NCBI RefSeq assembly: GCF_016411865.1
Contig: NZ_JAEKJA010000030.1
Span: 1 to 43,976, forward strand
Length of the DNA: 43,976 nucleotides
Reading direction: 5' to 3'
From: Acuticoccus mangrovi
GTDB lineage: Bacteria; Pseudomonadota; Alphaproteobacteria; Rhizobiales; Amorphaceae
Shown: positions 3,915-29,522 of the stretch, in pieces
Layout of the letters: each line of letters starts with the position of its first letter
Numbering within the stretch: the stretch's first letter is position 1
Notes under the pieces: model-generated
Databases searched by the model: none
What the model saw: the letters and a program-made list of their open reading frames with translations, nothing else
What the model was told of the DNA's origin: nothing
Translations under genes and position numbers: made by a program

Positions 3915-4034
3915 CTCTTCGTTTCCTCCTGCTGATGCGGGTTGGGACCGTCGCGGCGCGTCTAGCGGTGTGCCGGTCCCGTTCGGACCACGCGGGGTCC
4001 GGGTGTCGATCGTCCCGGAAGGGACGCCGGCTCG

Positions 4035-4072
4035 CTCATGGGCGCGGCGCCGGACTCATGGGCGCGGCGCCG
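4035..4072. repeat. 20-base tandem duplication at the end of the FAH-family gene
   Basis: The 18-base string CTCATGGGCGCGGCGCCG occurs at 4035-4052 and again at 4055-4072, a period of 20. The second copy contains the last codons and the stop of the FAH-family gene (minus strand). The first copy lies just past it and repeats the same stop context. It looks like a local replication-slippage duplication. Confidence 0.8.
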
Positions 4073-4907: not shown

Positions 4908-4928
4908 CGTGTGTCTGTCCTCACCGGG

Positions 4929-10544: not shown

Positions 10545-10593
10545 ACACACTTCCCAACACCCTTTGAAGCGGTGCAAACTGAGGAGCCGGGCT

Positions 10594-11766: not shown

Positions 11767-11796
11767 CGCCGTTCTCAGACCCGAAGGACCTGCGAA

Positions 11797-12747
11797 ATGT
11801 CCGACGACAAGATCACCCGAGAGCAGGCGCTCGAACAGATCGCGACGCTGTTCGACGCCCCCGAAAGCCGCTTTCCCCTGAACTTCAACTCCAAGATGCC
11901 CCGCATCCGCGAGCTGTTCCAGGCGGCGACCAAGAACCAGTGGGACCCCAAGCTCGACATCGCCTGGGACAAGCTCGACCCCGACGCCTACACCAAGGAG
12001 CAGCGCGACGCCGCGCGGCTCTACTGGAGCCGCCGCGCCTGGGGCGAATACGGCGCCATCTCCGAAAGCCCGGCGCTGCAGATCCGCTTCGTGGAGGAGG
12101 ACCGCCCCTCCGACATGCAGATGTTCTTCTCCATCCGCTCCCAGGAAGAAGCCCGCCACGCCGAGGTCTGCCACGACATGGCCGAGCGCCTCGGCGGCTA
12201 CATCGAAAAGCCCATCGAGCAGCTGTTCCAGACCTCGGTGTCGACCCACGGCGTGCGCCGCGCCGCGCTCGCCGCCGACGTGCCGCTCGAGGGCATCATC
12301 GCCGCCCTCGTGTGCACCGCCGAAGAGATCGCCTTCGACGTCTTCAAGCACCTCACCGACGTGACGTCGGACCCGGTGGCCAAGCAGATCGTCCGCCTGA
12401 TCATGCGCGACGAGAGCCGCCACTGCGCCTTCGGCTGGTACTTCCTTGAAGAAATCTGCGACGACCTCACCGACGAGCAGAAGACGATGATCGAGGAAGC
12501 CGTCGTCAACATGATCGAGAAGGTGGAGCTCAACGGCTACCACAGCGTCTGGCTCGCGCCCGACAACCCCGGCACGCGCCACGAGATCCAGACCGACGAG
12601 GTGACCCACGGCGCCGGCCTCGGGGCGACCATCGAGGAGCTCGAGAAGCCGATCTTCATCGAGTCCATCGCCCGCATCCGCAAGCAGATGGGCGATCTCG
12701 GCATCAACCTGCCGCCGTTCGAGCACCCGAAGGTCGGGACCTTCTGA
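11797..12747 (+). CDS. Ferritin-like di-iron protein, putative catalytic (alpha) oxygenase subunit
   Basis: 316 aa, mostly helical. It shows a complete carboxylate-bridged di-iron ligand set: Glu84 (RAWGEYG), E118-A-R-H121, Glu176/177 (CTAEEIAF) and E206-S-R-H209. This is the E, ExxH, E, ExxH pattern of ribonucleotide reductase R2, bacterial multicomponent monooxygenases and PaaA-type epoxidases. I cannot place it in a named family. It lies 30 bases after the binding-protein gene and its stop overlaps the start of a clear paralogue. The likely role is O2-dependent oxidation of the imported substrate. No ferredoxin, reductase or regulatory subunit gene is visible nearby, so the electron source is unknown. 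Confidence 0.8.
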   Translation: MSDDKITREQALEQIATLFDAPESRFPLNFNSKMPRIRELFQAATKNQWDPKLDIAWDKLDPDAYTKEQRDAARLYWSRRAWGEYGAISESPALQIRFVEEDRPSDMQMFFSIRSQEEARHAEVCHDMAERLGGYIEKPIEQLFQTSVSTHGVRRAALAADVPLEGIIAALVCTAEEIAFDVFKHLTDVTSDPVAKQIVRLIMRDESRHCAFGWYFLEEICDDLTDEQKTMIEEAVVNMIEKVELNGYHSVWLAPDNPGTRHEIQTDEVTHGAGLGATIEELEKPIFIESIARIRKQMGDLGINLPPFEHPKVGTF

Positions 12748-13688
12748 TGTCGACCCTCGCCGCGGACCGGCCGACCCAGGGCGAGCTCGACACGATCTAT
12801 TCCTTCGTCGAGCAGCGCTTCCCGCTCTATCTGTCGCCCAAGATCGCCTCGATCAACGACCTCTACGAGGCCGCCAAGCAGGGGCGCTGGAACCCCTTCC
12901 AGGAGGTACCCTGGAAGGCGCTGACCGCCGACGGCCTCGACCCCGAGACCGCCGCCGCCGTGCGCCGCACCTATAGCCGCCGCGCCTGGGGCGAGGCGAC
13001 CGGTCTCACCGAGACCCCCGCCCTCCTCATCCGCTTCTGCATGGAAACGGGTCGCGAGGTCGACCCCAAATTCTTCCTCACCGTGCGCAACACCGAGGAA
13101 GTGTGGGCCATCGAGTGCTTCGACCGGGTGGCCGAAGCCTTCGGCGGGCGCATCGAGCGGCCGGAGAACCGGGCCTACGAAGCCGCCTTCAACCAGCACC
13201 GCCATCGCCAGGTGGTGTCGGCGAGCCAGCTGCTCGATGCTTACGTCGCCGTCCACTGTGCCTTCGAGGACGGGCTCGAATACGGCCTCACCAAGGCGTG
13301 GCGAGAGGGGGCGGCCGACCCGATCCTCGCCGGCATGTTCGACAAGATACTGCCTGGCAAGGAGCGCCACGGCACCTTCGGCTGGCTCTATTTGGAACAC
13401 CGTGCTCCGACCTGGAGCGAGGAGGACAAGGCGGCCATCACCGAACAGCTGGTGCGCCACGTGAACGACGTCGAGATGCTCGGCCTCCACTGCCCCTGGC
13501 TCGCGCCCGAGCGGGCCGAGGCCGAGGCGCGCGCCGACGCCATCACCGCCGAGGCCGGCCTTGGCGCCGTGTCCAAGGAGGCGGAAAGCGAGGTTCTCGT
13601 CGGTTTTGTCGCCGATGCGCGTCAGCGCTTCGCCGAGCTCGGCATCGACCTGCCGCGGTTCAATTCCAACCACATCGGCTGGTTCTGA
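12747..13688 (+). CDS. Degenerate ferritin-like paralogue, putative non-catalytic (beta) partner
   Basis: 313 aa, colinear with the preceding protein over its whole length (shared SRRAWGE, ETPALxIRF, FGWxYLE, WLAP, and similar C-terminal ends). Key metal ligands are altered. The first ExxH becomes E118-V-W-A121, and the second becomes K205-E-R-H208, so one His and one Glu are lost, while E83 and E174 remain. It therefore probably cannot hold a normal di-iron centre. Start overlaps the previous stop by one base (TGATG), which suggests equimolar synthesis and a heteromeric complex. The same arrangement is known for the alpha/beta chains of soluble methane monooxygenase and for PaaA/PaaC. Confidence 0.78.
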   Translation: MSTLAADRPTQGELDTIYSFVEQRFPLYLSPKIASINDLYEAAKQGRWNPFQEVPWKALTADGLDPETAAAVRRTYSRRAWGEATGLTETPALLIRFCMETGREVDPKFFLTVRNTEEVWAIECFDRVAEAFGGRIERPENRAYEAAFNQHRHRQVVSASQLLDAYVAVHCAFEDGLEYGLTKAWREGAADPILAGMFDKILPGKERHGTFGWLYLEHRAPTWSEEDKAAITEQLVRHVNDVEMLGLHCPWLAPERAEAEARADAITAEAGLGAVSKEAESEVLVGFVADARQRFAELGIDLPRFNSNHIGWF

Positions 13689-13690
13689 CC

Positions 13691-14572
13691 GTGGACGGCA
13701 CGAACACCCTCGTCCAGCTCGTCATCGCGGGGCTGTCGATCGGCAGCATCTACGCGCTCATCGCGCTGGGCTTCAACATCGTCTTCAAGTGCACCGGGGC
13801 GATGAACTTCGCCCAGGGCGAATGGGTGATGATGGGGGGGATGGTGACCGCGGCGCTCTTCGGGGTGTTCTCCTCCGTGGGGCTCGCGGTCGTCACCGCG
13901 ACGGTGCTGATCGGCGCCATCGGGCTCGTGTCGGAGCGCATCACCATCTGGCCCGTGCGCCGGCCCGACCCGATGACGCTGACCCTCGTCACCGTGGGTC
14001 TCGCCATCGTCAGCCGCAGCCTCGTGATGATCTTCCTCGGCAAGATGCCGGCGGGCTATTCCGGCTTTTCCGGCACCGACGTGATCAGCATCGAGGGCGT
14101 CACGGTGCAGACGCAGAGCCTGTGGATCATCGCGATCACGCTCCTGTTCCTCGTCCTGATGCACTTTTTCTTCGAACGCACCGTGCTCGGCAAGGCGCTC
14201 CGGGCGGTGTCGGCCGACCCGCAGGCCGCCTCCCTCGTCGGCATCCCGTCGTCGCAGATGCTGATGCTCGCCTTCGGCCTCGCCGCCCTCGCCGGCGGGA
14301 TCGCGGGCGCCATCGTCACCCCGCTCACGCTGATGACCTACGACCAGGGCGCCACCCTCGGCTTCAAGGGGTTCAGCGCGGCGATGCTGGGGGGCATCGG
14401 CAACCTGCCGGGCGCCGTCGTCGGCGGGCTGCTGCTCGGCCTCATCGAGACCTTCGGGAGTTTTTACATCTCGTCCCACTTCAAGGATGCGATCTCGTTC
14501 GCGGTGCTCCTCCTCATCCTGTTCATGCGACCGGCGGGGCTGTTCGGCCGGGTGGAAGTGGTGAAGGCCTGA
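13691..14572 (+). CDS. livH: LIV-type ABC transporter permease LivH
   Basis: 293 aa from a GTG start two bases after the beta-subunit stop. It has about eight membrane segments. The family landmarks are LSIGSIYALIALGFNIVFK near the N-terminus and the cytoplasmic EAA-like loop ERTVLGKALRAVSADPQAA followed by VGI. It forms half of the membrane channel with LivM. A much longer in-frame ORF begins at 13103 but overlaps the previous gene and has no conserved extension. The closeness to the di-iron genes argues that transport and oxidation are one unit. Confidence 0.92.
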   Translation: MDGTNTLVQLVIAGLSIGSIYALIALGFNIVFKCTGAMNFAQGEWVMMGGMVTAALFGVFSSVGLAVVTATVLIGAIGLVSERITIWPVRRPDPMTLTLVTVGLAIVSRSLVMIFLGKMPAGYSGFSGTDVISIEGVTVQTQSLWIIAITLLFLVLMHFFFERTVLGKALRAVSADPQAASLVGIPSSQMLMLAFGLAALAGGIAGAIVTPLTLMTYDQGATLGFKGFSAAMLGGIGNLPGAVVGGLLLGLIETFGSFYISSHFKDAISFAVLLLILFMRPAGLFGRVEVVKA

Positions 14573-15638
14573 TGAGCCAGACCGCCGCCACCGAAGCGCC
14601 GCCCGCCGGCGCCCTCCCCGCCCACGACGACGTCCGCGACGACGCCCGCGAGGGCACCGGCGGGACCGACGCCGCGCCCGCCGCCCGGCCGGTGCGCAAG
14701 CCGCGCCTTTTCGCCCGCAACGCCGTCAGCTTCGTCGTCCTGTGGGCGCTGATGATCGCGGTCCCCTTCGTCGCGCCCAACTTCTACGTCGTCTCGCTGG
14801 TCAACCTCTTCCTGATCTACGTGATCCTGATCGCGAGCCTGAACCTCGTCATCGGCTTCTGCGGCCAGATCTCGCTGGGGCATGCGGGGTTCTTCGGCCT
14901 CGGCGCCTATGCGAGCGGGATCCTGAGCGCCAAGTTCGGCCTCACCCCCTGGCTCGGCCTGCCGGCGGCGGCGCTGGCGGGCGGGCTCGGCGCCTTCGTC
15001 ATCGGGCTGCCGGCGCTGCGCCTCCACGGGCATTACCTCGCCATGGCGACGCTCGGCTTCAACGCCATCCTCGTCGTCCTGTTCAACGAGCTGATCCCCC
15101 TCACCGGCGGCCCCAACGGCCTCCTCGGCATCGAGCCGTTCGCCCTCGGCCCCATCGCCCTCGACACCGACGAGACGGTGTTCTGGCTCGTGTGGATCGT
15201 GTCGCTCGTCGTCATGATCGCCATCGCCAACCTCGTCGATTCGCGCATGGGGCGGAGCCTGCGCGCCATTGGCGGCAGCGAGCGCGGCGCCGCCTCCCTC
15301 GGCATCGACACCTACCGCACCAAGCTCGCCACCTTCGCCATCGCCGGCGCCATGGCCGGCATCGCCGGCAGCCTCTACGCCCACGTGAACCTCTACGTGT
15401 CGCCGGAAACCTTCTCGGTGTTCCCCTCCATCATGCTCCTCGTGATGGTCGCGCTCGGGGGCACGGGGCGGCTCTGGGGTCCGATCTTCGGCGCGGCCGT
15501 CTTCATCGCCGTGCCCCAGGTGCTGCTCGACTTCGCCGACCTCGAGCTCCTCCTCTTCGGGCTCGCGATGCTGATCGTCCTCATCGGCTTCCCGGCGGGC
15601 ATCGCCGGCCTTGCCGACGGCTGGCGCCGGTGGCTCAA

Positions 15639-15642
<4 letters not shown>
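14572..15642 (+). CDS. livM: LIV-type ABC transporter permease LivM
   Basis: 356 aa. A polar, Ala/Pro/Asp-rich extension of about 45 residues precedes the first membrane helix, which is longer than in many LivM proteins. The core has the expected GFCGQISLGHAGFFGLGAYA and the loop SRMGRSLRAIGGSERGAASLGI. It pairs with LivH. The ATG overlaps the livH stop (ATGA). Confidence 0.92.
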
Positions 15643-16428
<786 letters not shown>

Positions 16429-16436
<8 letters not shown>

Positions 16437-17214
16437 CGCCGCCATCGCCCCGGCTCCCGAAGGGGCCGTCCCGGCCTCCACCGCCGCGAGCCTCGGCGAC
16501 GGTCTCGTCGTGCGCGGCATCCACGCCGGCTATGGCGAGATGCGCGTCCTGCACGGCGTCGACATCGAGGTGGCGGCGGGGGAGGCGGTCTGCCTCATCG
16601 GGGCGAACGGCATGGGCAAGACGACGCTGATGCGCTGCCTCGCCGGGCTTCTGCGCCCCTACGAGGGCACCGTGGGCTTCGCCGGGCGCAACCTCACCGG
16701 CCTTTCCGCCGCCGCGCGGGTGCGCGAGGGGGTCGCCCTGGTGCCGGAGGGCCGCCACGTCTTCAAGCCGATGACGGTGCAGGAAAACCTCGAGATGGGC
16801 GCCTACAAGCGCCTGTGGCCCCGGCGCGACCCGAAGGTGGCCGCCGACCTCGCCCACATTTACGAGATCTTCCCCCGCCTCAAGGAGCGCCGCACCTCCC
16901 TCGCGGGGACGCTCTCGGGGGGCGAACAGCAGATGCTCGCCATCGGCCGCGCCCTCATGTCCCGCCCGCGCCTCCTCCTCCTCGACGAGCCGTCGATGGG
17001 GCTCGCCCCGCGCGTGGTGCAGGAAATCTTCGCCGTCATTCGCCGGATCAGCGCGGAGGGTCTCGCGATCCTCCTCACCGAGCAGAACGCCCGCATGGCC
17101 TTCCGCACGGTGAGCCGCTGCTACGTCCTCAGCGAGGGACAGATCATCAGCGAGGGCACCTCGGAGAAGCTCGCCGCCGATCCGGCGGTGAAGGCGGCCT
17201 ATCTCGGCATTTGA
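16429..17214 (+). CDS. livF: LIV-type ABC transporter ATP-binding protein LivF
   Basis: 261 aa. It carries an N-terminal Ala/Pro-rich extension of about 25 residues, Walker A GANGMGKTT, VPEGRHVFKPMTVQENL typical of LivF, signature LSGGEQQ, Walker B LLLLDEPSMGLAP and TEQN in place of the switch histidine, as usual in LivF. It is the second ATPase of the heterodimer with LivG and the last gene of the transporter block. Confidence 0.93.
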
Positions 17215-18227: not shown

Positions 18228-18238
18228 CACGCCGGCGG

Positions 18239-18269
18239 CGAAGCCCCTCTGCGCCGCGGCGGGGCTTCG
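18239..18269 (+). terminator. Terminator-like hairpin after the transporter operon
   Basis: A perfect 9-bp stem, CGAAGCCCC (18239-18247) with GGGGCTTCG (18261-18269) and a 13-base GC-rich loop, starts 12 bases after the hydrolase stop. No T-run follows. Confidence 0.6.
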
Positions 18270-18761
18270 CGTTGCCGCCACCTCGGCCGGCTGCGGCCCT
18301 GAACGGGCCTCCGCCTCCGCACCACAGGGCCCGCCATGCGGCCGACTGCGCCGCGTCGCCGCGAACCGGGTGACGGCAGGGCGCGAGGCTTCCCGCTCCA
18401 GGATCGCCGATTTCTCAGTGACTTCGCTCGGAGCTCGACGCTCTGGTCGAGACCGGGTGCCGACTTGCGCGTGGATACACTGCATGTGCCTTCGCTCCGC
18501 TCACTGGCGGTCGAGGCGAAGCGTCGCCGAGGTGGGCGGCCCCGAGGACGTAGTCGATCGGGACTCGGGTCGGCCGATCGAGGGCTTGAGGTCGCCGGTC
18601 CGACTCTTCTCGGGTGGCAATGCGAACTCTCAGATCGCAGAATAACCAACTGAAATTACGCGGAATTTATCGCGAACACTCCTCCACCTCACGAACGCCG
18701 GTCCTGCCGCCCTTCCTGGCGGGAGCTTCCGAACCCGCGTCATGCGGGCACACCGCGTCCA
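18270..18761. other. Non-coding spacer, no gene recognised
   Basis: About 490 bases between the transporter operon and the urocanase promoter. Several frames are open because of high GC, but none has a convincing start, a family resemblance or neighbour-like amino-acid composition. GC falls from about 18600 onward. A small inverted element CGCG-N8-CGCG lies at about 18659-18674. Confidence 0.5.
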
Positions 18762-18807: not shown

Positions 18808-18836
18808 TTTGATCGATGAGGTTGGAGAGGGACGAG

Positions 18837-20498
18837 ATGGTAGGCAGCGCAACTCCTGGCGGCCCGCTCGTGTGTCGCGGTTGGGAGCAAGAGGGCATCC
18901 TGCGCTGCTTGCTCAACAATCTCGATCCGAACGTCGCCGAGGACGTCGAAAAGCTCGTCGTCTATGGCGGTAAGGGCCGCGCGGCGCGCAGCCACAAGGA
19001 CCTGAACCTCATCGTCGAGGCTCTGAAGCATCTCGGAGACGACGAAACCCTCATCGTCCAGTCGGGTGCCGCGGTCGCCGTGCTTCCGACCCATCCCGGC
19101 GCACCGCGGGCGATCATCTCCAGCGCCATGCTGGTGCCGGCCTGGTCGGATTCCCAGAGTTTCTGGAACCTCGAGGCGCGCGGACTGACGATGTACGGTC
19201 AGATGACGGCGGGCGGCTGGTTCTATATCGGCACCCAAGGCGTGCTCGGCTTCACCTACGAGACCTTCCTGGCGCTGGGGCGGAAGCACTTCGACGGCAA
19301 GCTCGCGGGCAAGCGCGTCCTCACCGCGGGTCTCGGCGGCATGGGCGGCGCCCAGGGTTTCGCCATCCCCAAGGCCGGCGCCCGCGCGCTGATCGTCGAG
19401 GTCGATGAAAAGCGCGCCCGGCGCCGCGCTTCGGCGGGCTGGGTACAGCATCTGACGCACGACTACGACGAGGCGATAGCGCTTCTCCACGCGTCCGACG
19501 CGCCGGAGGCGATCGCCCTGATCGGCAACATCGCCGAGGTCGCGCCGCGGCTGTTGAGTGACGGGGTCCACTTCGATGCCGTCACCGACCAGACGGCCGC
19601 CCACGATGCGCTGAACGGCTACGTGCCGATCGGCTACTCTCCGGAAGACACCCGCACCGCCACGGCGGACGACACGGCATATCTCGCCGCCGTGAAGGCC
19701 TCGATGCTGCGGCATGGCGAGGCACTGCTGGAGTTCAGGCGTCGGGGCAGCATCGTCTTCGAGTACGGCAACAACCTGCGCGACCAGGTGCGCCGGGCCG
19801 GGCTCGACGAGATCATGTCTATTCCGGGCTTCGTGAACGAGTATGTCCGCCCGATCTTCGCCTCCGGCGTGGGGCCGTTCCGGTGGATCGCGCTGAGCGG
19901 CGACGACGAGGATCTGCGCAAGAGCGAGGACGCGGTGCTCGAGGTCGCCGGAACGCCCGGCCTCGAGAAATGGTTCGAGCTCGCCCGGGCGGGCATCCCG
20001 CGGCAGGGTCTTCCGGCGCGCATCTGCTGGCTCGGTCTCGGCCAGCGCGATGCGGTGTGCACGCGGCTCAACGAGCTCGTCGCCGCCGGCGAGATCGGCC
20101 CGCTGGCGCTCGGTCGCGACCACATGGATCCGGCCTCGGTCGCCTCGCCCTTGCGCGAGACGGAAGGGATGCTCGACGGCTCGGACGCGATCGCCGACTG
20201 GCCCGTGCTCAGCGCCATGCTCAACTGCGCCCAGGGGGCGACCTGGGTTGCCGTCGGCAATGGCGGGGGCGTGGGTGTCGGCAACAGCATCCACACCGGC
20301 ATGGTGGTCGTCGCCGACGGCACGCCGCGTGCCGCCGAGAAGATCCGCCGCGTCTTCTGGACCGACCCGGCGCTCGGCGTCGCCCGCTATGCGGACGCCG
20401 GCTACGACGCCGCCATCCAGCGGGCCGCGGAGACAGGGCTCAACCTGCCGCGTCTGACCGACACACTTGCGAAACGTCACACGGGAGAAGCCCGATGA
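18837..20498 (+). CDS. Urocanate hydratase family protein, divergent substrate pocket
   Basis: 553 aa, full length for urocanase, with NNLDPNVAE, VVYGGKGRAARS (41-52), QMTAGGWFYIGTQG, LTAGLGGMGGAQ (NAD-binding), VTDQTAAHD, YGNN, GPFRWIALSGD, ARICWLGLG with the conserved cysteine, and GRDHMDPASVASPxRET. Family members add water across an imidazole-acrylate using tightly bound NAD+. Several residues near the active site differ from canonical HutU: the AARDW segment is AARSH, the HHGGGVG segment is GNGGGVG, and FSQHSG is NSIHTG. No hutH, hutI or hutG is present. The ATG at 18837 has GGAGAGG six bases upstream. A substituted urocanate, such as a thio- or methyl-derivative, is more likely than urocanate itself. 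That is inference. Confidence 0.85.
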   Translation: MVGSATPGGPLVCRGWEQEGILRCLLNNLDPNVAEDVEKLVVYGGKGRAARSHKDLNLIVEALKHLGDDETLIVQSGAAVAVLPTHPGAPRAIISSAMLVPAWSDSQSFWNLEARGLTMYGQMTAGGWFYIGTQGVLGFTYETFLALGRKHFDGKLAGKRVLTAGLGGMGGAQGFAIPKAGARALIVEVDEKRARRRASAGWVQHLTHDYDEAIALLHASDAPEAIALIGNIAEVAPRLLSDGVHFDAVTDQTAAHDALNGYVPIGYSPEDTRTATADDTAYLAAVKASMLRHGEALLEFRRRGSIVFEYGNNLRDQVRRAGLDEIMSIPGFVNEYVRPIFASGVGPFRWIALSGDDEDLRKSEDAVLEVAGTPGLEKWFELARAGIPRQGLPARICWLGLGQRDAVCTRLNELVAAGEIGPLALGRDHMDPASVASPLRETEGMLDGSDAIADWPVLSAMLNCAQGATWVAVGNGGGVGVGNSIHTGMVVVADGTPRAAEKIRRVFWTDPALGVARYADAGYDAAIQRAAETGLNLPRLTDTLAKRHTGEAR

Positions 20499-22477
20499 AG
20501 CCGGAGTTGGCGGAACAGGACCGCTCGCCATGCTACAGTTTGAGCATCGACACGGGGGGCACGTTCACCGACGGCTTCGCATCCGGTCCCGATGGTCAGG
20601 TTCAGGTCAAGGTCGACACGACCCCGCATGATTTGACCCAGGGCTTCATGGCGTGCGTGGAAGCGGCCGCCGAGGCGATGAACGAACCGCTGGAGGATTT
20701 CCTCGCCCTGCTGCGGGACGTGCGCTTCTCCTCCACGATCGCCACCAACGCCGTGGTGCAGCGGCTCGGCCACCGCGTCGGGCTGATCGTCAGCGACGGC
20801 GGGCTCGCGGCCTACGGCTCCGACGGCGAGTTCGCGTCGCTTAGCGATTTCATCGATCCCGACTTCGTCGTCGCGGTGCCCGAAGCCGTCAGCGATGAGG
20901 GCGTCGTCGAGCTGGCACCGAACCCGGCCGACGTCGAGGCCGCCGTGCGCCGTCTCCTCGAGCGCGGCGTCGGGATGATCGTGATCAGCTTTCGCAACGC
21001 CGACAAGAACCCGGCGAACGAGGCGGCGGCGCGGGAGCTCATCACCGCCTCCTATCCGCGGCATTATCTCGGCGCCATTCCGGTTCTCCAGGCCGCCCGG
21101 CTGTCGTTGTCGCCGAGCGACTTCGGGCGCACGGCCTTGGCGATCCTCAATGCCTATCTGCACCCCTCGCTGGTGCGCAGCCTCTACAAGGCCGAAGACG
21201 GGCTGCGCACCAGCGGACACCAGCGCCCGCTGCTGATCGTCAACACCGACGGCTCGACCACGCGCGTCGCCAAGACGCGGGCGCTCGACACGTTCAACTC
21301 CGGCCCGTCGGCCGGCGTGATCGGCGCGGCGAATGTCGCCGCCGCGATCAAGGCGGAGCACGTCTGCACCTTCGACGTCGGCGGCACCACGACGGACGTC
21401 GCCTACATCCACGACGGCACGGCCCTGCGCACGCCGCACACCGTCGCCGCGAGCCTCTCGGTGCCGCACCCGGCCATCGACCTCTGGTCCTTCGGCCTCG
21501 GCGGCGGGTCGATCATCGCGCGCAAGGACGGGGCGTTGACGGTGGGGCCGAACAGCGCCGGCTCGTCGCCGGGGCCGGCGTGCTTCGGCTTGGGCGGCAC
21601 CCATCTGACGCCGACGGACGTCTGGCTGATCCTCGGATATATCGACCCCGAGGGCTATCTCGGCGGGCGCCGCACCTTGCGCAAGGACGCCTCGATCGCC
21701 GCGCTCGACGCGGTCTTTCCGGGCGACGACCGATCGGCGGAAGACAAGGCCCTCGATGCGCTCGACGCCGTCCATCGCGCCTTGGCCGACGGGATGCGGG
21801 CGTGGGCCGCGAACCACCCGGAGCTGTTGTCGGGCCCGGGGCGTTGGCTCTTTTCCTACGGCGGCGGCGGCGGTCTCCTGTGTGTGGAGGCGGCGCAATC
21901 CCTCGGCATCGACCAGGTCGTGGTGTTCCCGCAGTCGTCCGTGTTCTCGGCGTTCGGCGGCGGCCTGATGCCGATCGCCCACGCCTATCGGGCGTCCGCC
22001 TCGCGTCTTGCAGGGCCCTTCAAGCTCGCCGCTCTGGTGGGCGCCGCCGAGCGCGATTTGCGGGCCGAAGGGATCACCGACCTCGCCGCGGTCAAAGCCT
22101 CGGTCAGCGTGTCGTCGACGGACGGGGTGGAGACGGAGATTCAGTCGGACCTCGCGTCGCTCAAGGCGGACGACGCGAGCGTCGACCTGACGCCGCGCAG
22201 TCATCGGGTCGACCTGCGCGTGGAGGTGGAGCGTCCCCTCGACGTGACGGTGCGCATGGGCGTGCCGGAATTGGGTAAGGCAGACCGGACCGTCCACACA
22301 CGCGAGGGCGCGCGCGCCTATCCGATCGTGCGCGGGCTGGGCGAGCCGAACGCCGCGCCCGTCGACGGACCGGCATTCCTCGCGGCCCAGGACACGACGA
22401 TCGTCATTCCCGAAGGCTGGCACTGCACGTTCGACGCGCTGGGCTTCGGCACTCTGCGCAAGGGGGCATCCCAATGA
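20495..22477 (+). CDS. HyuA-family (hydantoinase/oxoprolinase N-domain) subunit, first copy
   Basis: 660 aa. It carries the acetate/sugar-kinase-like ATPase motifs of the HyuA family: DTGGTFTD (19-26), FDVGGTTTD mid-protein, FGLGGGSII and SSPGPACFG. The family uses ATP to activate a carbonyl or enol for hydrolysis of cyclic amides or carboxylation. The start overlaps the urocanase stop (ATGA), with GGGAGAAG upstream. The order HyuA, small cysteine protein, HyuA, HyuB matches the four core subunits of acetophenone carboxylase, so this is probably one subunit of a single complex rather than a stand-alone hydantoinase. Confidence 0.87.
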   Translation: MKPELAEQDRSPCYSLSIDTGGTFTDGFASGPDGQVQVKVDTTPHDLTQGFMACVEAAAEAMNEPLEDFLALLRDVRFSSTIATNAVVQRLGHRVGLIVSDGGLAAYGSDGEFASLSDFIDPDFVVAVPEAVSDEGVVELAPNPADVEAAVRRLLERGVGMIVISFRNADKNPANEAAARELITASYPRHYLGAIPVLQAARLSLSPSDFGRTALAILNAYLHPSLVRSLYKAEDGLRTSGHQRPLLIVNTDGSTTRVAKTRALDTFNSGPSAGVIGAANVAAAIKAEHVCTFDVGGTTTDVAYIHDGTALRTPHTVAASLSVPHPAIDLWSFGLGGGSIIARKDGALTVGPNSAGSSPGPACFGLGGTHLTPTDVWLILGYIDPEGYLGGRRTLRKDASIAALDAVFPGDDRSAEDKALDALDAVHRALADGMRAWAANHPELLSGPGRWLFSYGGGGGLLCVEAAQSLGIDQVVVFPQSSVFSAFGGGLMPIAHAYRASASRLAGPFKLAALVGAAERDLRAEGITDLAAVKASVSVSSTDGVETEIQSDLASLKADDASVDLTPRSHRVDLRVEVERPLDVTVRMGVPELGKADRTVHTREGARAYPIVRGLGEPNAAPVDGPAFLAAQDTTIVIPEGWHCTFDALGFGTLRKGASQ

Positions 22478-22824
22478 GCAAGCCCGACACGGAGCGACCG
22501 AGCCTCCTCGAGGTGACCGAATATCTCGCCATCGATCTGGACGCGCGGCGGTGGCAGTGCCGCTGCTGCGGTCACGATCTCGGCGAGGCGGCGAGCAACT
22601 ACAAGTTCGCCTGCCTGGTCGCCGACCGCGACCCGCGCGAGGTGCACCCGCCGGTCATCGACGGTCCGTACACCTTCGCGCCCGATCCCGACTGGTGCCG
22701 GATCGTGGAATTCTACTGCCCCGGATGCCTGACCCTCATCGAGGCGGAATATCTGCCGCCCGGCCATCCGGTCACGCACGACATCGAGATCGATATCGAT
22801 TCCTTGAAGAAGAAATCAGCGTGA
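22474..22824 (+). CDS. Small cysteine-rich subunit, acetone/acetophenone carboxylase gamma/alpha-prime-like
   Basis: 116 aa. Cysteines are arranged as CRCC (29-32) and CPGC (82-85), with further Cys47 and Cys75, which suggests a zinc-ribbon-like fold. The region YKFACLVADRDPREVHPP followed by the aromatic DPDWCRIVEFYCPGC resembles the small subunit family of acetone and acetophenone carboxylases. It overlaps the preceding hyuA by four bases (ATGA) and precedes the second hyuA by seven bases. It is expected to be a structural or active-site-shaping component of the complex. The family assignment comes from residue pattern and context together. Confidence 0.8.
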   Translation: MSKPDTERPSLLEVTEYLAIDLDARRWQCRCCGHDLGEAASNYKFACLVADRDPREVHPPVIDGPYTFAPDPDWCRIVEFYCPGCLTLIEAEYLPPGHPVTHDIEIDIDSLKKKSA

Positions 22825-22831
22825 GAGAACG

Positions 22832-24985
22832 ATGAATCATTCATCGATCGAGATTGATATCGGCGGCACGTTCACCGATTGCTACGTCACCTCCCGCGAT
22901 GGTCGGACGACCTGGTGCAAGGTGCGCACGACGCCGCACGACCTCGGTCTCGGCCTGTCCCGCGCGATCGATGAGGCGGCCCAGCGGTTGGACACGTCCG
23001 GCGACGCGCTGCTCGAAGAGACGAGCATCGTCCGCTACTCCACCACCGTCGCGCTGAACAAGTTGATCGAGCGCAGCGGGCCCAAACTCGCCTACATCAC
23101 CACGTCCGGCTTCGACGACACCCTGCTGATCGGCCGCGCCAGCCAGTGGTCGGACGGCCTGCCGTTCAAGGAGCAGCGCAACGTCGCGCGCGTGAACAAG
23201 CCGGTTCCGCTGATCCCCAAGCATCTGACGGTGGGGGTGAAGGAGCGCATCGGCTCGTTCGGCGAGGTGCTGCGCCCGCTGGACGAAGACGATTTCCTCG
23301 CCAAGCTCGACCATCTCGTCGACCAGGGCGTGCGCGGCTTCGTCGTCTGCACGCTGTTTTCCTACCTCAATCCGGTGCACGAGCTGAAGATTCGCGAGCT
23401 GATCGAGCGCGAATACGACGAGTCCTATCTCGGTCGCATGCCGGTGTTCCTGTCGCACGAGGTCTCGCCGCGGAAGATGGAGTACACGCGTTCGACGATG
23501 ACGCTGTTGAACGCCTACCTCCATCAGTCGATCTATGAGGAGCTCGTCGGCATCGGCCAGCAGCTGCGCAGCCGCGGCTACAAGGCGCCGCTGATGATGG
23601 TGCACAACACCGGCGGCATGGCGAGCGTGTTTCGCTCGTCCGCCGTGCAGACCTTCAGCGGCGGTCCCGTCGCCGGTCTGATGGGCAGCGCCGCGATCGG
23701 TGAGTCCTACGGGCGCTCGAACGTCGTCACCACCGACATGGGCGGCACCTCCTTCGACATCGGCATGGTGGTGCAGGGCAGCACCCGCTTCTATCAGTTC
23801 GCGCCGACCATCGATCGCTGGGTGATCGACGCGACGATCCTCGATACGCGCTCGATCGGTGCCGGTGGCGGCTCGATCGCCCGCGTCAGCGAGGAGCTCG
23901 GCGGCCGCCTCGATGTCGGCCCGGAGAGCGCCGGGTCGATCCCGGGCCCCGTCTCCTACGACCAGGGCGGGCGCGAGCCGACGGTGACCGATGCCGACCT
24001 CGTCCTCGGCTACCTCGATGCCGACAACTTCCACGGCGGCAAGCTCACGCTCAACAAGGCGCGGGCCGAGCGAGTGATCGGGACGAAGATCGCCAAGCCG
24101 CTCGGCGTCTCCGTTCCCCACGCGGCGCTGCTGATCAAGCGGATCATCGACGCCAAAATGGGCCTCGAGATCCACAAGGAAACCGTGCTGAAGGGCTACG
24201 ACCCGCGCGACTTCACGGTGTTCGCGATGGGCGGCGCGGGCCCGGTCCATTGCTGCGGCTACACCGCCGCGGCGAACATGAGCGAGATCGTGGTCTTCCC
24301 GTTCTCCTCGGCGTTCTGCGCCTTCGGATCGTCGACGATGGACGTGCTCCACGTCTACGAGCGGTCGCAGCGCATCACGCTGCTGAAGCCCAGCGATCCG
24401 GACTCCTGGCTCGCCGACGGCAGCACCTTCAACGCCGTGGTCGAGGACTTGTCCGACCAGGCGCGCCGCGACTTCTCCGGCGAGGGCTTCGACAGCTCCA
24501 AGCTGACCTTCGAGCTCGAGCTCGAGATGCGCTTCGGCGGTCAGCTCAACGTCAAGCGGGTGGCCTCGCCGATGCTCCGGCTCACCGGCACCGAGGACGC
24601 CCGCACGATCGCCGCCGCCTTCGAGAAGGAGTTCAGCGAGGCCTATAGCGCGATGGGGCTGAACCCCGACGCCGGCATCGAGATCGAAGGCTTCATTCTG
24701 AAGGCGAGGCTGCCGCAGCCGCGGCCGGTTCTCCCGGTCTACCCCGAGGGCGGCCGGCCGGAAGGCGCCAAGGAGGCGCAGACCGGCACGCGCCTCGCCT
24801 TCTGGGATGTCGAGAAGGGGTTCGAGCCGACCCCCGTCTATCAGATGAACCTGCTGCTGCATGGCGACCGTCTGCGCGGGCCGGCGATCATCGAAGACGA
24901 GAGCACGACACTTGTTCTCGACCCGGGTTGGACCCTCAATGTCGACCGTCACCACGCGCTCGTACTGTCAAGGGAGACTGCCTGA
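22832..24985 (+). CDS. HyuA-family subunit, second copy
   Basis: 717 aa. ATPase motifs are intact: DIGGTFTD (9-16), TTDMGGTSFD, GAGGGSIAR, ESAGSIPGPVSYD and FAMGGAGPVHCCG. It is clearly homologous to but distinct from the first copy, and longer by about 57 residues, mostly in the C-terminal half. The two copies are not a recent duplication. In acetophenone carboxylase two different HyuA-like chains coexist in the core complex, which explains the pair. It is joined to hyuB by a one-base overlap. Confidence 0.9.
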   Translation: MNHSSIEIDIGGTFTDCYVTSRDGRTTWCKVRTTPHDLGLGLSRAIDEAAQRLDTSGDALLEETSIVRYSTTVALNKLIERSGPKLAYITTSGFDDTLLIGRASQWSDGLPFKEQRNVARVNKPVPLIPKHLTVGVKERIGSFGEVLRPLDEDDFLAKLDHLVDQGVRGFVVCTLFSYLNPVHELKIRELIEREYDESYLGRMPVFLSHEVSPRKMEYTRSTMTLLNAYLHQSIYEELVGIGQQLRSRGYKAPLMMVHNTGGMASVFRSSAVQTFSGGPVAGLMGSAAIGESYGRSNVVTTDMGGTSFDIGMVVQGSTRFYQFAPTIDRWVIDATILDTRSIGAGGGSIARVSEELGGRLDVGPESAGSIPGPVSYDQGGREPTVTDADLVLGYLDADNFHGGKLTLNKARAERVIGTKIAKPLGVSVPHAALLIKRIIDAKMGLEIHKETVLKGYDPRDFTVFAMGGAGPVHCCGYTAAANMSEIVVFPFSSAFCAFGSSTMDVLHVYERSQRITLLKPSDPDSWLADGSTFNAVVEDLSDQARRDFSGEGFDSSKLTFELELEMRFGGQLNVKRVASPMLRLTGTEDARTIAAAFEKEFSEAYSAMGLNPDAGIEIEGFILKARLPQPRPVLPVYPEGGRPEGAKEAQTGTRLAFWDVEKGFEPTPVYQMNLLLHGDRLRGPAIIEDESTTLVLDPGWTLNVDRHHALVLSRETA

Positions 24986-27051
24986 TGGCACTCGACGTCG
25001 CTCTGATCGAATCCGGCATCAAGCCGGTGCCGCCGACCCAGGAAGAACTCGACGCGGCCGAGGCGCTCCAGGTCGGTGATTACGAGATCTTTTCCGAGAA
25101 CCTGGTGCTGATCGCCCAGGAGGGAAAAGAGGTCATGACGAAGATGGGCATCTCGTCCATGCTTCATTCCGGCGACACGATGGTCGGGATCTACACGGCG
25201 GCGGGCGACCTCGTCACCACCGTGTGCGGCACGCTGCTGCACAGCGTGACCGGCCAGATTCCGATCAAATACATCATCAAGCACTTCACCGACGATCCGA
25301 GTGTCGGCGTGCGCGAAGGTGACGTCTACTACACCAACGAGGCGCTCTACGGCGGCATCCACAACCCGGATCAGTTCGCGATCATGCCGGTGTTCGTCGA
25401 CGGTGAGCTGCTCGCCTGGGTGGTCAGCGGGGCGCATCAGTCGGAGACCGGCGGCTCGGAGCCGGGCGGCGAGATCCCCGCGGCGACGACGCGCCACGAC
25501 GAGGGCATGAAGCTCACGCCGATCAAGATCGGCGAGAACTACCGTCTGCGCACCGACCTCCTCAACATGATGGAGAACTTCATCTCGCGCGCGCCGCGCA
25601 TGCAGGTCACCGACGTGAAGGCGCGCGTGGCGGCCTGCGACCGCGTGCGCCAGCGGGTTCAGGCGATGGCGGCGCGGCGCGGCACGGCGACCATGAAGGG
25701 TCTCTTCCGCAAGATGATCCAGGAGACGTCGTCCGGCGTGCATCAGCGCGTCGCGCGATGGGTCGACGGCACCTACCGCCACACGGTGTTCATGGACACC
25801 ACCGGCCACGAGGACTCGCTGTTGCGCGCGTCGGTGACGCTGACCGTCAAGGACGGCAAGCTCAGCATCGACTTCGAAGGCAGCTCGCCGGAGCACGAAG
25901 GCAGCTACAACGCGTTCGCCTCCGTCATCCGCGCCCACTGCGCGGTGATCCTCTTCGAACTCCCGTTCAACGACTTTCCGATGTCGTCGGGCATGATGGA
26001 GCACATCGAGATCGCGGTGCCGAAGGGGTCGTTCTTCGACGCCGGGCCCGAGGCGGCGATCTCGTGCTCGCCGCTCGTCGGCGGTATGGTCTTCCCGCTC
26101 CTCGGCGTGGTGCTGTCGAAGGCAATGTACAGCTCCGAGCAGCGCGACCAGGTGTGCGGCTACACCTCGTCCAGCGCCTCCGCCGTCATGGTATCGGGCA
26201 CCAACCAGCACGGTGTCCGGGTGACCGACTTCATGGGCTATCCGCTGAACGCCTACGGGCTCGGCGCCCGGTGCGATCAGGACGGGGTGGACGTGTTCGG
26301 CTTCCCGCACGGCCCGTGGGGCAAGGCGCCGGACGTCGAGGACATCGAGTCGGAGTTCCCGCTTCTCCATCTCTACCAGCGTCAGATGACGGATACCTGC
26401 GGCTACGGCAAATATCGCGGCGGGGTGGGCGCGTCGATCGCCTATATCGTGCGCGGGTCGCCCTACGTGGCGTTCACCTCGAGCCAGAAGGAATCGAAGT
26501 TCCCCGCCCACAACGGCCTCTTCGGCGGCTATTCCATGTCCACCTTGCCGGGCATTCAGGTCCGCGGGACGGACGCGCTCGCCAGGATGGCGGCCGGCGA
26601 CCCCAACATCCCGACCGACGACTACGAGCTGGCCGTCGCCGAGGCCAACAAGACGCTGGGCGGCGAGGTGATCATGGAGCACCAGACGCGCGGCATCCGC
26701 GTGCTTGCCGAGGGCGACATCCTCGCCGCGAGCACGCAGGGGAGCGGCGGCTACGGCGACGTGCTCGAACGCGACCCGGCGAGCGTGGCGGAGGATCTCA
26801 GGAAGGAGGTCATCACCCTCGGCGTCGCCCGCGACGTCTACGGGGTCATCGTCGATCCCCAGCGCTTCCTGGTCGACGAGGAGGCCACCGCGGCGCGCCG
26901 CCAGGAGATGCGGCAGGCGCGTGGAGCCAAAGCCAAGCCCTACGGCGAATGGGTCAAGTCGTGGGAGGCGAAGCGGCCGCCGGATCAGGCGCTCAAGTGG
27001 TTCGGAACCTGGCCCGACGCCAAGCCCAACCGGGACGTGGTGAGAATCTGA
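24985..27051 (+). CDS. HyuB-family (hydantoinase B/oxoprolinase C-domain) subunit
   Basis: 688 aa. Motifs typical of HyuB are present: EIFSENLVLIAQEGKEVM near the N-terminus, VREGDVYYTNEALYGGIHNPD, GAHQSETGG, and in the C-terminal half GYGKYRGGVGASI and GSGGYGD. The ATG at 24985 overlaps the hyuA stop by one base and has AGGGAG upstream. HyuB carries the hydrolase/carboxylase chemistry while HyuA supplies ATP-dependent activation. Here it would be the last of four core subunits. The expected reaction is ATP-dependent ring opening or carboxylation of the product of the urocanase step. Confidence 0.92.
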   Translation: MALDVALIESGIKPVPPTQEELDAAEALQVGDYEIFSENLVLIAQEGKEVMTKMGISSMLHSGDTMVGIYTAAGDLVTTVCGTLLHSVTGQIPIKYIIKHFTDDPSVGVREGDVYYTNEALYGGIHNPDQFAIMPVFVDGELLAWVVSGAHQSETGGSEPGGEIPAATTRHDEGMKLTPIKIGENYRLRTDLLNMMENFISRAPRMQVTDVKARVAACDRVRQRVQAMAARRGTATMKGLFRKMIQETSSGVHQRVARWVDGTYRHTVFMDTTGHEDSLLRASVTLTVKDGKLSIDFEGSSPEHEGSYNAFASVIRAHCAVILFELPFNDFPMSSGMMEHIEIAVPKGSFFDAGPEAAISCSPLVGGMVFPLLGVVLSKAMYSSEQRDQVCGYTSSSASAVMVSGTNQHGVRVTDFMGYPLNAYGLGARCDQDGVDVFGFPHGPWGKAPDVEDIESEFPLLHLYQRQMTDTCGYGKYRGGVGASIAYIVRGSPYVAFTSSQKESKFPAHNGLFGGYSMSTLPGIQVRGTDALARMAAGDPNIPTDDYELAVAEANKTLGGEVIMEHQTRGIRVLAEGDILAASTQGSGGYGDVLERDPASVAEDLRKEVITLGVARDVYGVIVDPQRFLVDEEATAARRQEMRQARGAKAKPYGEWVKSWEAKRPPDQALKWFGTWPDAKPNRDVVRI

Positions 27052-27054: not shown

Positions 27055-27705
27055 ATGGCCGCGCTGCGTGACGCCTTGGCAGGGAAGAGCCGCTGCTTCG
27101 TCCCGTACGCCTGGGAGGAACTGCCGTCGCTCGTCAATATGAGCGCCGGCCCCGGCTGGTGGACCGATGCGACCGGGTGCCGACGCCTCCTGCTCGACCT
27201 GATCGGGGCAACCGGAGCGCACGGCGCGGTGGTCGATATCCTTCACCCAAGCGAGCAGCGCCTGCTGGCGGACGAGCCCGGATTGGAGGGCCTTTGCGAC
27301 GACGTCCTCGACAACCCGGTCGTCGCCGACGCGATCGACAGGCTCAGCCGTCTTGCGGCGACGGTGCAGGTTCCGCTCGTCGCCGCCCTTCCAAGCTTCC
27401 ACGACGGGGACGCCGACCTGGTGGGTGACATTCTGTGCGACATCGCCGGAGCGGCGATGGGGACCGGCATCGCCGCGATCCTGATCGCTGGCGCCGACGG
27501 GGCGGTGGCCGGCCGGATCAAGCGGCTCGCGGACAATTTCGATCTTCCCGTGATCGTGCTGGGCGAGGACGGCGCGCGCGAGATCACCCGCGACGGGGCG
27601 GTGGCCGTGGCGGGGGACGTGCCAGCCGGCGTGGTTCTGACGCCGGGCGACGTCAGCCGCAGCTGGACCCTTGCCGAGATCAAGCAGTTCGGAAGCGCGC
27701 CGTGA
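27055..27705 (+). CDS. Protein of unknown function in the urocanase/carboxylase operon
   Basis: 216 aa, starting three bases after the hyuB stop. I do not recognise a family. The sequence alternates hydrophobic strands and helices (GAVVDILHP, VPLVAALPSF, GIAAILIAGADG, LPVIVLGEDG), suggesting a compact alpha/beta fold of Rossmann-like type. It has no signal peptide, membrane segment or obvious metal motif. Acetophenone carboxylase has a fifth, separable subunit encoded after its core genes, and this protein occupies that position, though I see no sequence evidence that it is equivalent. An AGGG lies too close to the ATG to be a good ribosome site, so translational coupling is likely. Confidence 0.7.
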   Translation: MAALRDALAGKSRCFVPYAWEELPSLVNMSAGPGWWTDATGCRRLLLDLIGATGAHGAVVDILHPSEQRLLADEPGLEGLCDDVLDNPVVADAIDRLSRLAATVQVPLVAALPSFHDGDADLVGDILCDIAGAAMGTGIAAILIAGADGAVAGRIKRLADNFDLPVIVLGEDGAREITRDGAVAVAGDVPAGVVLTPGDVSRSWTLAEIKQFGSAP

Positions 27706-27744
27706 CGGCGGGTGGCATCGACCCGACGGGAAGGGGATCTTGAT

Positions 27745-28704
27745 ATGACGATGGGCTCGCCCGCCGACGCGCGCCAGACGGTGGCCATCGTCGGTGCCGG
27801 CGCGATGGGAGCGGGGATCGCCATCGCCTGCGCTCGGGCGGGGCATCCGGTGCGCTGCTTCGTGCGCAGCGACGAGTCGCGGTCGAAGCTCTTCGAGCGG
27901 ATCGGCACGGCGCTGGACGTTCTGGTGTCCGCCGACCTCGCACAGCCGTCCGAGAAGGACGGGATCGTGGAGCGCATCAGAACGGCGCCCTCGATCGGCG
28001 AGGCCGTCGAGGGCAGCGCGCTGATCGTGGAGTCGGTGCCCGAAGCGGTTCCGCTCAAGCTCGAGATCTTGGCCGCGATCTCGGACAGCTGCGAGGAGAG
28101 TGCCGTCATCACGACGAACACCAGCTCGCTGGATCTCGCAGAGCTCGAAGGCGCCGTCGCGGGGCCGGCCCGGTTTGCGGGGCTCCACTGGTTCTACCCC
28201 GCCGAGTTGGTCGAGGTCGTCGAGATCGTCGCCGCCCCGTCGACGGCGCCGGCCGTTCTCGACGCGCTGCAAGCCTTCGCCGAGGGGATCGCCAAGCAGG
28301 TCGTGCGGGTGAAGCGACCGATCCCGGGCTTCGTCGTCAATCGACTGCAATATGCGCTGCTGCGTGAGGCGCACCATCTGATGGCCGAGGGCGTGTGCGA
28401 CGCGCAGGACATCGACGCCTCGCTCGTGGCCTGTCTCGGTCCGCGTTGGTCGGCAACGGGACCGTTGGAGAGCATGGATCTCGCCGGTCTCGACGTTCAC
28501 CTCGCCGTCGCCCAGCAGCTCTATCCGCAACTGTCCGCCGCCACGGAGCCGCATCCCCGGCTGGTCGAGCTGGTCGCGAAGGGAGATCTCGGCGCGAAGT
28601 CCGGACGGGGCATCTGCGGCGGCTATGATAGCGTGTCGGTAACCAAACTGTTCCAACGTCGCGCTGCGGCAATCCGTGCCCTCCGCCGCGCCGAGCGCAC
28701 GTGA
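27745..28704 (+). CDS. 3-hydroxyacyl-CoA dehydrogenase family protein (lambda-crystallin/short type)
   Basis: 319 aa. The NAD-binding GAGAMGAG is at 17-24. The middle motif NTSSLDL, GLHWFYPAELVEVVEIV, and the C-terminal PGFVVNRLQYALLREA and LGPRWSATGPLESMDL identify the single-domain-pair type shared with L-gulonate 3-dehydrogenase and carnitine dehydrogenase. These oxidise a 3-hydroxy acid or its CoA ester with NAD+. AAGGGG precedes the ATG at 27745; an in-frame upstream ATG at 27712 lacks one. Within this operon it may oxidise a hydroxy acid formed after ring opening. Confidence 0.87.
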   Translation: MTMGSPADARQTVAIVGAGAMGAGIAIACARAGHPVRCFVRSDESRSKLFERIGTALDVLVSADLAQPSEKDGIVERIRTAPSIGEAVEGSALIVESVPEAVPLKLEILAAISDSCEESAVITTNTSSLDLAELEGAVAGPARFAGLHWFYPAELVEVVEIVAAPSTAPAVLDALQAFAEGIAKQVVRVKRPIPGFVVNRLQYALLREAHHLMAEGVCDAQDIDASLVACLGPRWSATGPLESMDLAGLDVHLAVAQQLYPQLSAATEPHPRLVELVAKGDLGAKSGRGICGGYDSVSVTKLFQRRAAAIRALRRAERT

Positions 28705-28769
28705 CAGCCTCCTTTGGATGAAGACTTGTGCGAGGGTCGCATAGACGACGTGAGACCGATGCGAAGACG

Positions 28770-29522
28770 ATGAAGAGCACCGATACGATCGTTCGCCCGC
28801 ACAGACTCCTCGAAGAGGTCGGGCATGGCTCGAACCTCGTGGACGACATCGCCTTTCGTCTCCAGGCGGACATCCTGCATGGCGCCTTCGCGCCCGGCCA
28901 GCACCTGAAGCAGACCGATCTGTGCGATCGCTACGGCGTGAGCCGGACGCCGATCCGGGAGGCGCTGCAGCAGCTTCAGGCGCAGGACATGGTCGTCATC
29001 GTGCCCAACAAGGGCGCGATCGTTCAGTCGCCGACGGCGAGCGGCCTGATGGAAGTCTACGAGATCCGCGCGGAGCTCGAAGGGTTTGCCGCCGAGCTGG
29101 CGGTCGCCAACTGGACCGAGGACGACGAGATCGAGCTGTTGTCGACGCAAGCCAAGCTGACGGCCCTCGTCGAGATCGCCCTCAGCCATGCCAACGTCAC
29201 GTCGGAGTCGGAGACGAAAGTGGCGACGCGCATCGCCGCGGTGAACGAGGAGTTCCACGCGATCTTCCGTTCCGCGTGCCGCAATCAGCGGCTGAAGGGA
29301 CTGATCGTCAACCTGCAGAACTCGGTGCCGGTGCGGCAGGTGTGGTTTGCCGTAAAGAACGCGAACGAAGCGCACCGCCTCAACGTCGAGGATCACGACG
29401 AGATCATCGACGCGTTCCGCCGACGCAGCCCATCCGATGCGCGCGAGGCGACGCGGAAGCACATTCTGCGTGCGGGGCGATGGCTCGTCGAGGCCTTCGG
29501 CCGCCAGGACACGGTCGACTAG
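28770..29522 (+). CDS. GntR-family regulator, FCD subfamily
   Basis: 250 aa. The winged helix is at about 25-85, with the recognition segment LCDRYGVSRTPIREALQQL, followed by an all-helical FCD domain (about 100-235). Its acid and histidine residues (VNEEFHAIF, DHDEII, RKHILRA) look like the usual metal/ligand site. It is 65 bases after the dehydrogenase gene on the same strand and is the likely repressor of the urocanase operon. The start is uncertain; a GTG at 28728 is the alternative. The ligand is probably an operon intermediate. Confidence 0.87.
   Translation: MKSTDTIVRPHRLLEEVGHGSNLVDDIAFRLQADILHGAFAPGQHLKQTDLCDRYGVSRTPIREALQQLQAQDMVVIVPNKGAIVQSPTASGLMEVYEIRAELEGFAAELAVANWTEDDEIELLSTQAKLTALVEIALSHANVTSESETKVATRIAAVNEEFHAIFRSACRNQRLKGLIVNLQNSVPVRQVWFAVKNANEAHRLNVEDHDEIIDAFRRRSPSDAREATRKHILRAGRWLVEAFGRQDTVD

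Follow-up and report, generated by a model that had tools for sequence, protein, structure and literature searches.

Why should a urocanase gene stand directly in front of the genes of a carboxylase-like complex? This question is raised by contig NZ_JAEKJA010000030.1 of Acuticoccus mangrovi, analysed here over its whole length of 43,976 nucleotides (hereafter the window, which is one entire contig), in which a gene for a divergent urocanase-family hydratase (uroC) is followed by a gene set resembling that of acetophenone carboxylase (apcABCDE), a dehydrogenase gene and a gntR regulator gene. The uroC-apcABCDE-dehydrogenase-gntR run is real, its frames are open, and so far it has been met once. 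Read by itself, the sequence shows genes of the acetophenone carboxylase (Apc) branch, that of a probable fifth subunit included, and a urocanase-family gene overlapping them; these are known families, in a combination met nowhere else in the surveys made, which suggests a breakdown pathway not described so far. We tentatively favour a single catabolic operon, in which ApcABCDE would carboxylate a ketone and the urocanase-like hydratase would act in the same pathway. The likeliest substrate, we infer, would be a ketone of N-heteroaromatic, imidazole-like structure.

The carboxylase-like complex

Comparison with proteins of known structure placed all four core subunits nearest to the acetophenone carboxylase of Aromatoleum aromaticum EbN1 (PDB 5L9W). 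ApcC matched 5L9W with 723 bits, compared with 372 for acetone carboxylase (Acx), 330 for oxoprolinase and 294 for N-methylhydantoinase; the corresponding scores of ApcD were 495 for 5L9W, 190 for acetone carboxylase and 112 and 106 for hydantoinases (Hyd), and those of ApcB 143 for 5L9W and 50 for acetone carboxylase. ApcA reached 297 bits with chain 5l9w_b, 253 with the other HyuA-type chain of 5L9W and 153 with the next enzyme.

In the part of PMC5214803 drawn on here, Apc, Acx and Hyd enzymes are told apart by the order of their genes, apcABCD(E), by their place in trees, by the lengths of the subunits and by signature motifs. This gene order is present in the window, the E-like protein being recognised by hhalign, AlphaFold2 and Foldseek. 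The same part of that source describes the beta and the gamma subunit of Apc as each about 50 residues shorter than those of Acx; they measure 688 and 116 amino acids (aa) in the window, 684 and 129 in 5L9W and 776 and 168 in Acx, so that the window follows Apc in length, and one HydB chain has 581. Alignments inspected by eye showed the four conserved cysteines described there for the gamma subunit in ApcB and the ATP/phosphate motifs in both ApcA and ApcC, and the alpha fingerprint given there, R/KERiDsxG, reads KERIGSFG in ApcC, with D replaced by G.

The trees agree within their limits, both FastTree runs carrying a long-branch warning. In the ApcD tree (120 rows), the smallest starred set consisted of the window protein and three Apc rows (99), and the 15 other HyuB proteins of the genome formed one separate group; the Apc label requires two changes on this tree, and one row (L160) sits with the acetone-carboxylase-type rows. 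In the ApcC tree (106 rows), the window protein and 5L9W shared a 13-row clade (82) and a 7-row clade (85), both under the 95 mark, and the tree does not settle the order in which the 13-row clade, five rows of acetone-carboxylase or hydantoinase type and a 78-row clade branch. Within these limits, the window complex falls with Apc, away from Acx and Hyd, as PMC5214803, in the part used, separates them, and the grouping of HyuA or HyuB with 5-oxoprolinases or N-methylhydantoinases, which an earlier note on this DNA had named as one outcome that would overturn its proposal, was not seen.

All four NCBIfam equivalog cut-offs were missed (ApcA 330 of 1250 bits, ApcB 162 of 250, ApcC 782 of 1500, ApcD 556 of 1500), and the complex is therefore put in the Apc branch and not named acetophenone carboxylase. 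By these sequence comparisons it is a complex of that branch and not a hydantoinase. A hydantoinase or 5-oxoprolinase is ruled out by the PDB scores and the ApcD tree, Hyd being encoded by two genes (hydAB) without gamma or alpha-prime subunits, and an acetone carboxylase by gene number (three genes, acxABC), by its gamma subunit of about 168 aa and by the scores. The genome holds 16 Hydantoinase_B matches, among which the window ApcD scores lowest, and ApcB is its only match to PF08882.

Seven residues of the ketone pocket of 5L9W are named in the part of PMC5214803 used, and the putative pocket of ApcC keeps five of them (L81, F281, P285, I333 and T345), with N282 replaced by S and Q344 by D. 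Most of 100 ApcC-type rows differ from 5L9W at L81, F281, N282, Q344 and T345; judged by these positions, the predicted window pocket is closer to the aryl-ketone pocket than most rows, with an added acid. As a side observation, a clade of 75 Apc-like ApcC proteins (most of L052-L126) lies apart from the characterised acetophenone carboxylase, and the pocket residues met most often among the 100 rows are T/I/H/H/L, which suggests another substrate.

The urocanase-like protein

UroC passed the HutU model TIGR01228 (676.9 bits, cut-off 375) and missed those of thiourocanate hydratase (NF058530, 543 bits, cut-off 930) and S-methylthiourocanate hydratase (NF058531, 583 bits, cut-off 880). It retains the NAD and catalytic motifs VVYGG, GQMTAG, RICW, RDH and RETE, and before GGG it has Gly-Asn (481-482) where HutU has His-His; further changes are Gly134 and Gly145-Phe146. 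Divergence was counted over 273 near-invariant HutU columns, at least 98% conserved among 49 HutU rows (44 distinct, the counts being identical when the five duplicates were dropped), four divergent HutU-type rows having been left out of this reference by choice. UroC was altered at 81 of these columns and the genome's own HutU at none, also when it was omitted from the reference rows, while two thiourocanate hydratases, taken from the family search and both above their cut-off, were altered at 89 and 90. Lower counts were obtained for the urocanase on contig C14 of the same genome (47) and for three more divergent HutU-type rows (28, 32 and 48, with 10 gaps in the row that gave 48). In a tree of 38 rows, the UroC branch measured 5.25 changes per column, the median being 0.15.

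These comparisons indicate that UroC is not the genome's ordinary HutU, in keeping with the earlier note, which had called the urocanase divergent and had regarded an ordinary HutU with hut genes elsewhere as fatal to its proposal. Hut genes do lie elsewhere: of the three urocanases in the genome, one is the HutU of contig C65, where HutF, HutI, HutH, HutU and HutC stand together with the sole PF00221 aromatic ammonia-lyase of the genome. A thiourocanate hydratase was also considered for UroC and ruled out by the model cut-offs and by substitutions that are mostly different. The third urocanase (contig C14, L005:9102-10814), which is followed by an MmgE/PrpD gene, has RSYW in place of the RICW of HutU and has thereby lost the cysteine.

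Relatives of UroC are distant. The closest in the 397 genomes of the order has 53% identity, and plasmid relatives lie at 50-53% among the 40 matches listed of 705. A match of 60% in one genome covers the C-terminal 213 residues of UroC only, within an open frame of 217 codons.

The fifth subunit

ApcE is required for activity according to the parts of PMC4729919 and PMC5214803 consulted, the latter describing ApcE sequences as strongly divergent. An iterative search started from the gene after apcD in Neorhizobium, covering 2033 open reading frames of 98 loci and the window, yielded an ApcE-position family of 68 proteins, one per locus, of which 65 lie within 400 base pairs (bp) of an Apc gene match. 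The 216-aa protein encoded after the window apcD was not significant by hidden Markov model in this search, nor by hhalign against sets of six and three sequences, and had no plasmid match. Against the 68-sequence family, hhalign gave 93% probability (E 3e-7, 171 columns), compared with at most 3.5% for 20 other window proteins and at most 0.3% for eight shuffles. AlphaFold2 gave no usable structure from the protein alone (pLDDT 40) and a model of pLDDT 70 when 20 family members were supplied, whose best Foldseek match was 9fou_D, an ApcE chain (E 6e-4); this result is supportive and not independent, because the 20 family members shaped the model. Profile and model together make the protein a probable shortened ApcE-like fifth subunit. 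The earlier note thus recognised the type of the complex correctly and gave it one subunit too few, the likely fifth (epsilon) being encoded at 27055-27705.

A profile search of the PDB started from A4 yielded TALE-type repeat proteins alone, none of whose stretches passed by itself, and no ApcE chain, and was treated as an artefact; among the matches listed, no newer paper on ApcE structure appeared relevant by title. In a separate observation, proteins beside Apc genes near the clade of the window matched URO-D (PF01208) in five of six cases (L053, L229, L230, L231 and L238), none of three proteins that follow apcD elsewhere did so, and the six-protein and three-protein sets were linked by profile comparison at 95%. 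The ApcE-position family is likewise related by profile comparison to proteins with a URO-D match, and ApcE may be a URO-D-type barrel.

The gene run and its junctions

Pfam and NCBIfam scans of the window proteins found all five genes of the earlier note with open frames and in the order that it had given, namely urocanase, HyuA, small cysteine-rich protein, HyuA and HyuB, at 18816/18837-27051 (Table 1). Its statement that all were joined by stop-start overlaps holds for three of the four junctions: uroC/apcA and apcA/apcB share ATGA and apcC/apcD share TGATG, and a gap of 7 bp separates apcB from apcC. A further 3 bp lie between apcD and the gene for the 216-aa protein. The overlaps suggest co-expression. 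For uroC, the ATG at 18837, preceded by a purine-rich stretch, is the likelier start, as is the ATG at 27745 for the dehydrogenase gene. The guanine-cytosine content by codon position is coding-like for uroC, apcC, apcD and the two genes after apcD. The dehydrogenase had FHMPC dehydrogenase as its best NCBIfam model, at 210 bits, under the cut-off of 500.

Table 1. Genes of the uroC-apc run in the window
Gene or product	Position	Strand	Basis
UroC, divergent urocanase-family hydratase, 560 aa	18816..20498	+	Pfam Urocanase_N, Urocanase, Urocanase_C
ApcA (HyuA; alpha-prime in the part of PMC5214803 used), putative bicarbonate kinase subunit	20495..22477	+	best PDB match 5l9w_b
ApcB (gamma in the part of PMC5214803 used), Cys4 small subunit of Acetone_carb_G type, 116 aa	22474..22824	+	PF08882, 135.5 bits
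ApcC (HyuA; alpha), putative ketone kinase subunit, 717 aa	22832..24985	+	best PDB match 5L9W
ApcD (HyuB; beta), 688 aa	24985..27051	+	5L9W match, ApcD tree
Probable ApcE-like fifth subunit, shortened, 216 aa	27055..27705	+	apcE position, hhalign, Foldseek
NAD dehydrogenase of the 3-hydroxyacyl-CoA-dehydrogenase family	27712..28704	+	3HCDH_N and 3HCDH domains
GntR/FCD regulator, last gene of the run	28728..29522	+	GntR and FCD domains

A stretch of about 590 bp lies between the run and an alpha/beta-hydrolase gene upstream. Within this gap, a 16-nucleotide inverted repeat at 18238-18270 was considered as a terminator, which a consensus scan did not support, no terminator-like site having been found there.

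The search for a second example

Loci with relatives of ApcB were collected from a contig scan (68 loci), from plasmids (83 records matched, of which 7 regions were used) and from genomes. Matches occurred in 21 of 397 genomes of the order and 20 of 385 of the class (own genome included in both), in 8 of 329 of the phylum (own and earlier ones included) and in 17 of 296 of the phylum of an actinobacterial relative, from which 20, 10, 2 and 10 regions were taken, respectively. Among the other genomes of the genus (seven) and family (two), only one had a PF08882 match, which its gene order assigns to the acetone-carboxylase type. Together, 112 loci had both ApcB and HyuA, 95 of them Apc-like and 17 acetone-carboxylase-like by our own sorting; 91 of the 95 were distinct by 150 bases at ApcB, and 86 had at least 4.2 kb upstream of ApcB.

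No urocanase was found in any of the 112 loci, the 95 Apc-like ones included, within flanks of up to about 10 kb. Since the contig scan depends on an exact match to a short peptide, the surveys worked with samples and the flanks are short, this absence is not proof; with no second pairing found, conservation cannot vouch for the pairing either. Two scans of viral contigs gave no relative. By title and start of abstract, none of the papers met in the open-access literature concerned this pairing; the earlier note, too, knew of no described pathway with this gene set. Annotation places coenzyme A (CoA) transferase, AMP-binding or thiolase genes near some relatives of the complex, and sequence starts inspected by eye suggest PaaK-type ligases near L102, L229 and L234 and thiolases near L066, L230 and L231. 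No CoA-ligase, CoA-transferase or thiolase gene was seen in the window run.

Proposed pathway and alternatives

In the Apc model, as set out in the part of PMC5214803 used, the enol of the ketone is phosphorylated, carboxyphosphate is formed, and a beta-keto acid is the product of a cycle in which ApcE participates. By analogy, ApcC would phosphorylate the ketone enol, ApcA would form carboxyphosphate and the ApcE-like protein would complete the cycle to a beta-keto acid. The 3HCDH-family dehydrogenase may interconvert beta-keto and beta-hydroxy forms, and UroC may hydrate a heteroaryl-acrylate in the same pathway. The simplest joint pathway would carboxylate a ketone, carry out redox chemistry on the beta-carbon and hydrate a heteroaryl-acrylate, the last steps of which we infer.

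In favour of a single pathway are the overlapping starts and stops, the Apc-type features of the complex with an ApcE-like gene in its place, the strong divergence of UroC from HutU, the five retained pocket residues and the lack in the run of the CoA-related genes that stand near several relatives of the complex. Several points weigh against it. The run has neither an enzyme for the dehydration step nor a CoA ligase gene, and the 3HCDH dehydrogenase family acts mostly on CoA esters. Other Apc-like proteins, too, have an acidic or polar residue at the position of Q344, which makes the aspartate of the window weak evidence for a charged substrate. The putative bicarbonate site of the alpha-prime subunit, located from the part of PMC5214803 used, keeps one of three residues (D274, with E248 replaced by N and K281 by D), which speaks against an unmodified Apc mechanism. 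The 13-row clade uniting the window ApcC with 5L9W lacks strong support (82, under the 95 mark), a consensus scan found no promoter-like site ahead of uroC, and the surveys gave no second pairing.

The main rival is the co-location of unrelated steps, that is, an operon of two activities in which a spare urocanase still hydrates urocanate beside an aryl or alkyl ketone carboxylase. We regard this as possible rather than probable. It would agree with the score of UroC above the HutU cut-off, its intact NAD and cysteine motifs, the further spare urocanase on contig C14 and the lack of a urocanase in all 95 Apc-like loci; the ATGA overlap of uroC with apcA, the many changes in UroC at positions fixed in HutU and the lack of any HutH, HutI or HutF match among the window proteins scanned speak against it.

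A narrower form of the common pathway would start from an acetyl-N-heteroarene, such as acetyl-imidazole, and lead it into urocanate-type chemistry: ApcABCDE would carboxylate the methyl ketone, the 3HCDH-family enzyme would reduce the beta-keto acid, dehydration would yield a heteroaryl-acrylate, and UroC would hydrate this to an imidazolone-type product. This particular route is unlikely; if it proved true, UroC would be, to our knowledge, the first urocanase known to work behind a ketone carboxylase.

Rather improbable is the proposal of the earlier note that the complex uses ATP to open or carboxylate an imidazolone-type product made by the urocanase, in place of HutI. The pairing of the genes invites it, and the degradation of ergothioneine offers a precedent, a urocanase relative there feeding hydantoin-type chemistry; the NCBIfam models thiouroc_hyd and ErtE were met in the family scans. 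Against it, the genome has its HutI on contig C65 (HutG was not searched for), so that the suggested replacement is not supported, and the complex lies on the ketone-carboxylase branch with subunits absent from hydantoinases. The subunits score higher to Apc than to hydantoinases or oxoprolinases and group with Apc in the trees, which disfavours an ATP-dependent opening of the ring; by the family description in the part of PMC5214803 used, a lactam carbonyl would require two Hyd subunits only. An assembly chimera or decaying genes, suggested by a window that is a whole contig and by the want of a second example, is very improbable given open frames throughout, exact overlaps, coding-like base composition in uroC, apcC, apcD and the next two genes, and retained catalytic motifs.

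Neighbouring genes

A module at 9702-17214 comprises a UTRA-GntR regulator, a binding protein, a tandem pair of diiron-type proteins (sharing 32% identity; one, the first, weakly resembles AurF/R2, and the second has no family match) and Liv-type transporter genes. A similar module lies on a Paraburkholderia plasmid (L276; first diiron protein 62%, second 41%, binding protein 54%, LivH 52%), with no urocanase or Apc gene in its 28.8-kb stretch. With that precedent and about 590 bp between the runs, a part of these upstream ABC transporter and diiron genes in the pathway was set aside. The genes at 2889-7119, for a TRAP-type binding protein (DctP), an FAA hydrolase, a short-chain dehydrogenase and an FMN-dependent dehydrogenase, suggest another catabolic set. 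On the minus strand at 40109-43444, an M20 carbamoylase-type amidohydrolase, a PuuE-like polysaccharide deacetylase and a threonine-aldolase-type protein possibly serve ureide or amino acid catabolism.

Comparison with known systems

As of 2017, biochemical characterisation within the Apc branch was limited to a single member, as stated in the part of PMC5214803 used. An Apc-type carboxylase coupled to a re-tuned urocanase would give both families a tangible way into a new class of substrate, and an annotated 'urocanate hydratase' next to a 'hydantoinase' can conceal ketone carboxylation. The EbN1 complex (5L9W), as described in the part of PMC5214803 used, and the window share the order A-B-C-D-E, the subunit sizes, the Cys4 small subunit, two kinase subunits with ATP motifs and five of seven pocket residues; the window differs in an epsilon-like subunit that is far shorter, in scores under the four NCBIfam cut-offs, in the urocanase gene in front and in the lack of a CoA ligase gene seen in the run. 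The 75-sequence Apc-like clade (Zoogloea, Rhodococcus, Porticoccus and others) likewise has the order apcABCD, mostly with a gene at the ApcE position, while forming a separate clade with a ketone pocket unlike that of the window.

On the urocanase side, UroC resembles HutU (TIGR01228) in its three domains, NAD motifs, RICW cysteine and RETE Arg-Glu pair, and departs from it in the 81 altered columns, in Gly-Asn for His-His and in having no hut enzyme gene seen adjoining it. Its substitutions are mostly not those of the thiourocanate hydratases (NF058530), and its scores lie under the cut-offs; the two proteins compared nevertheless diverge from HutU to a similar degree as UroC, and NF058530 and NF058531 both describe urocanase relatives with other substrates.

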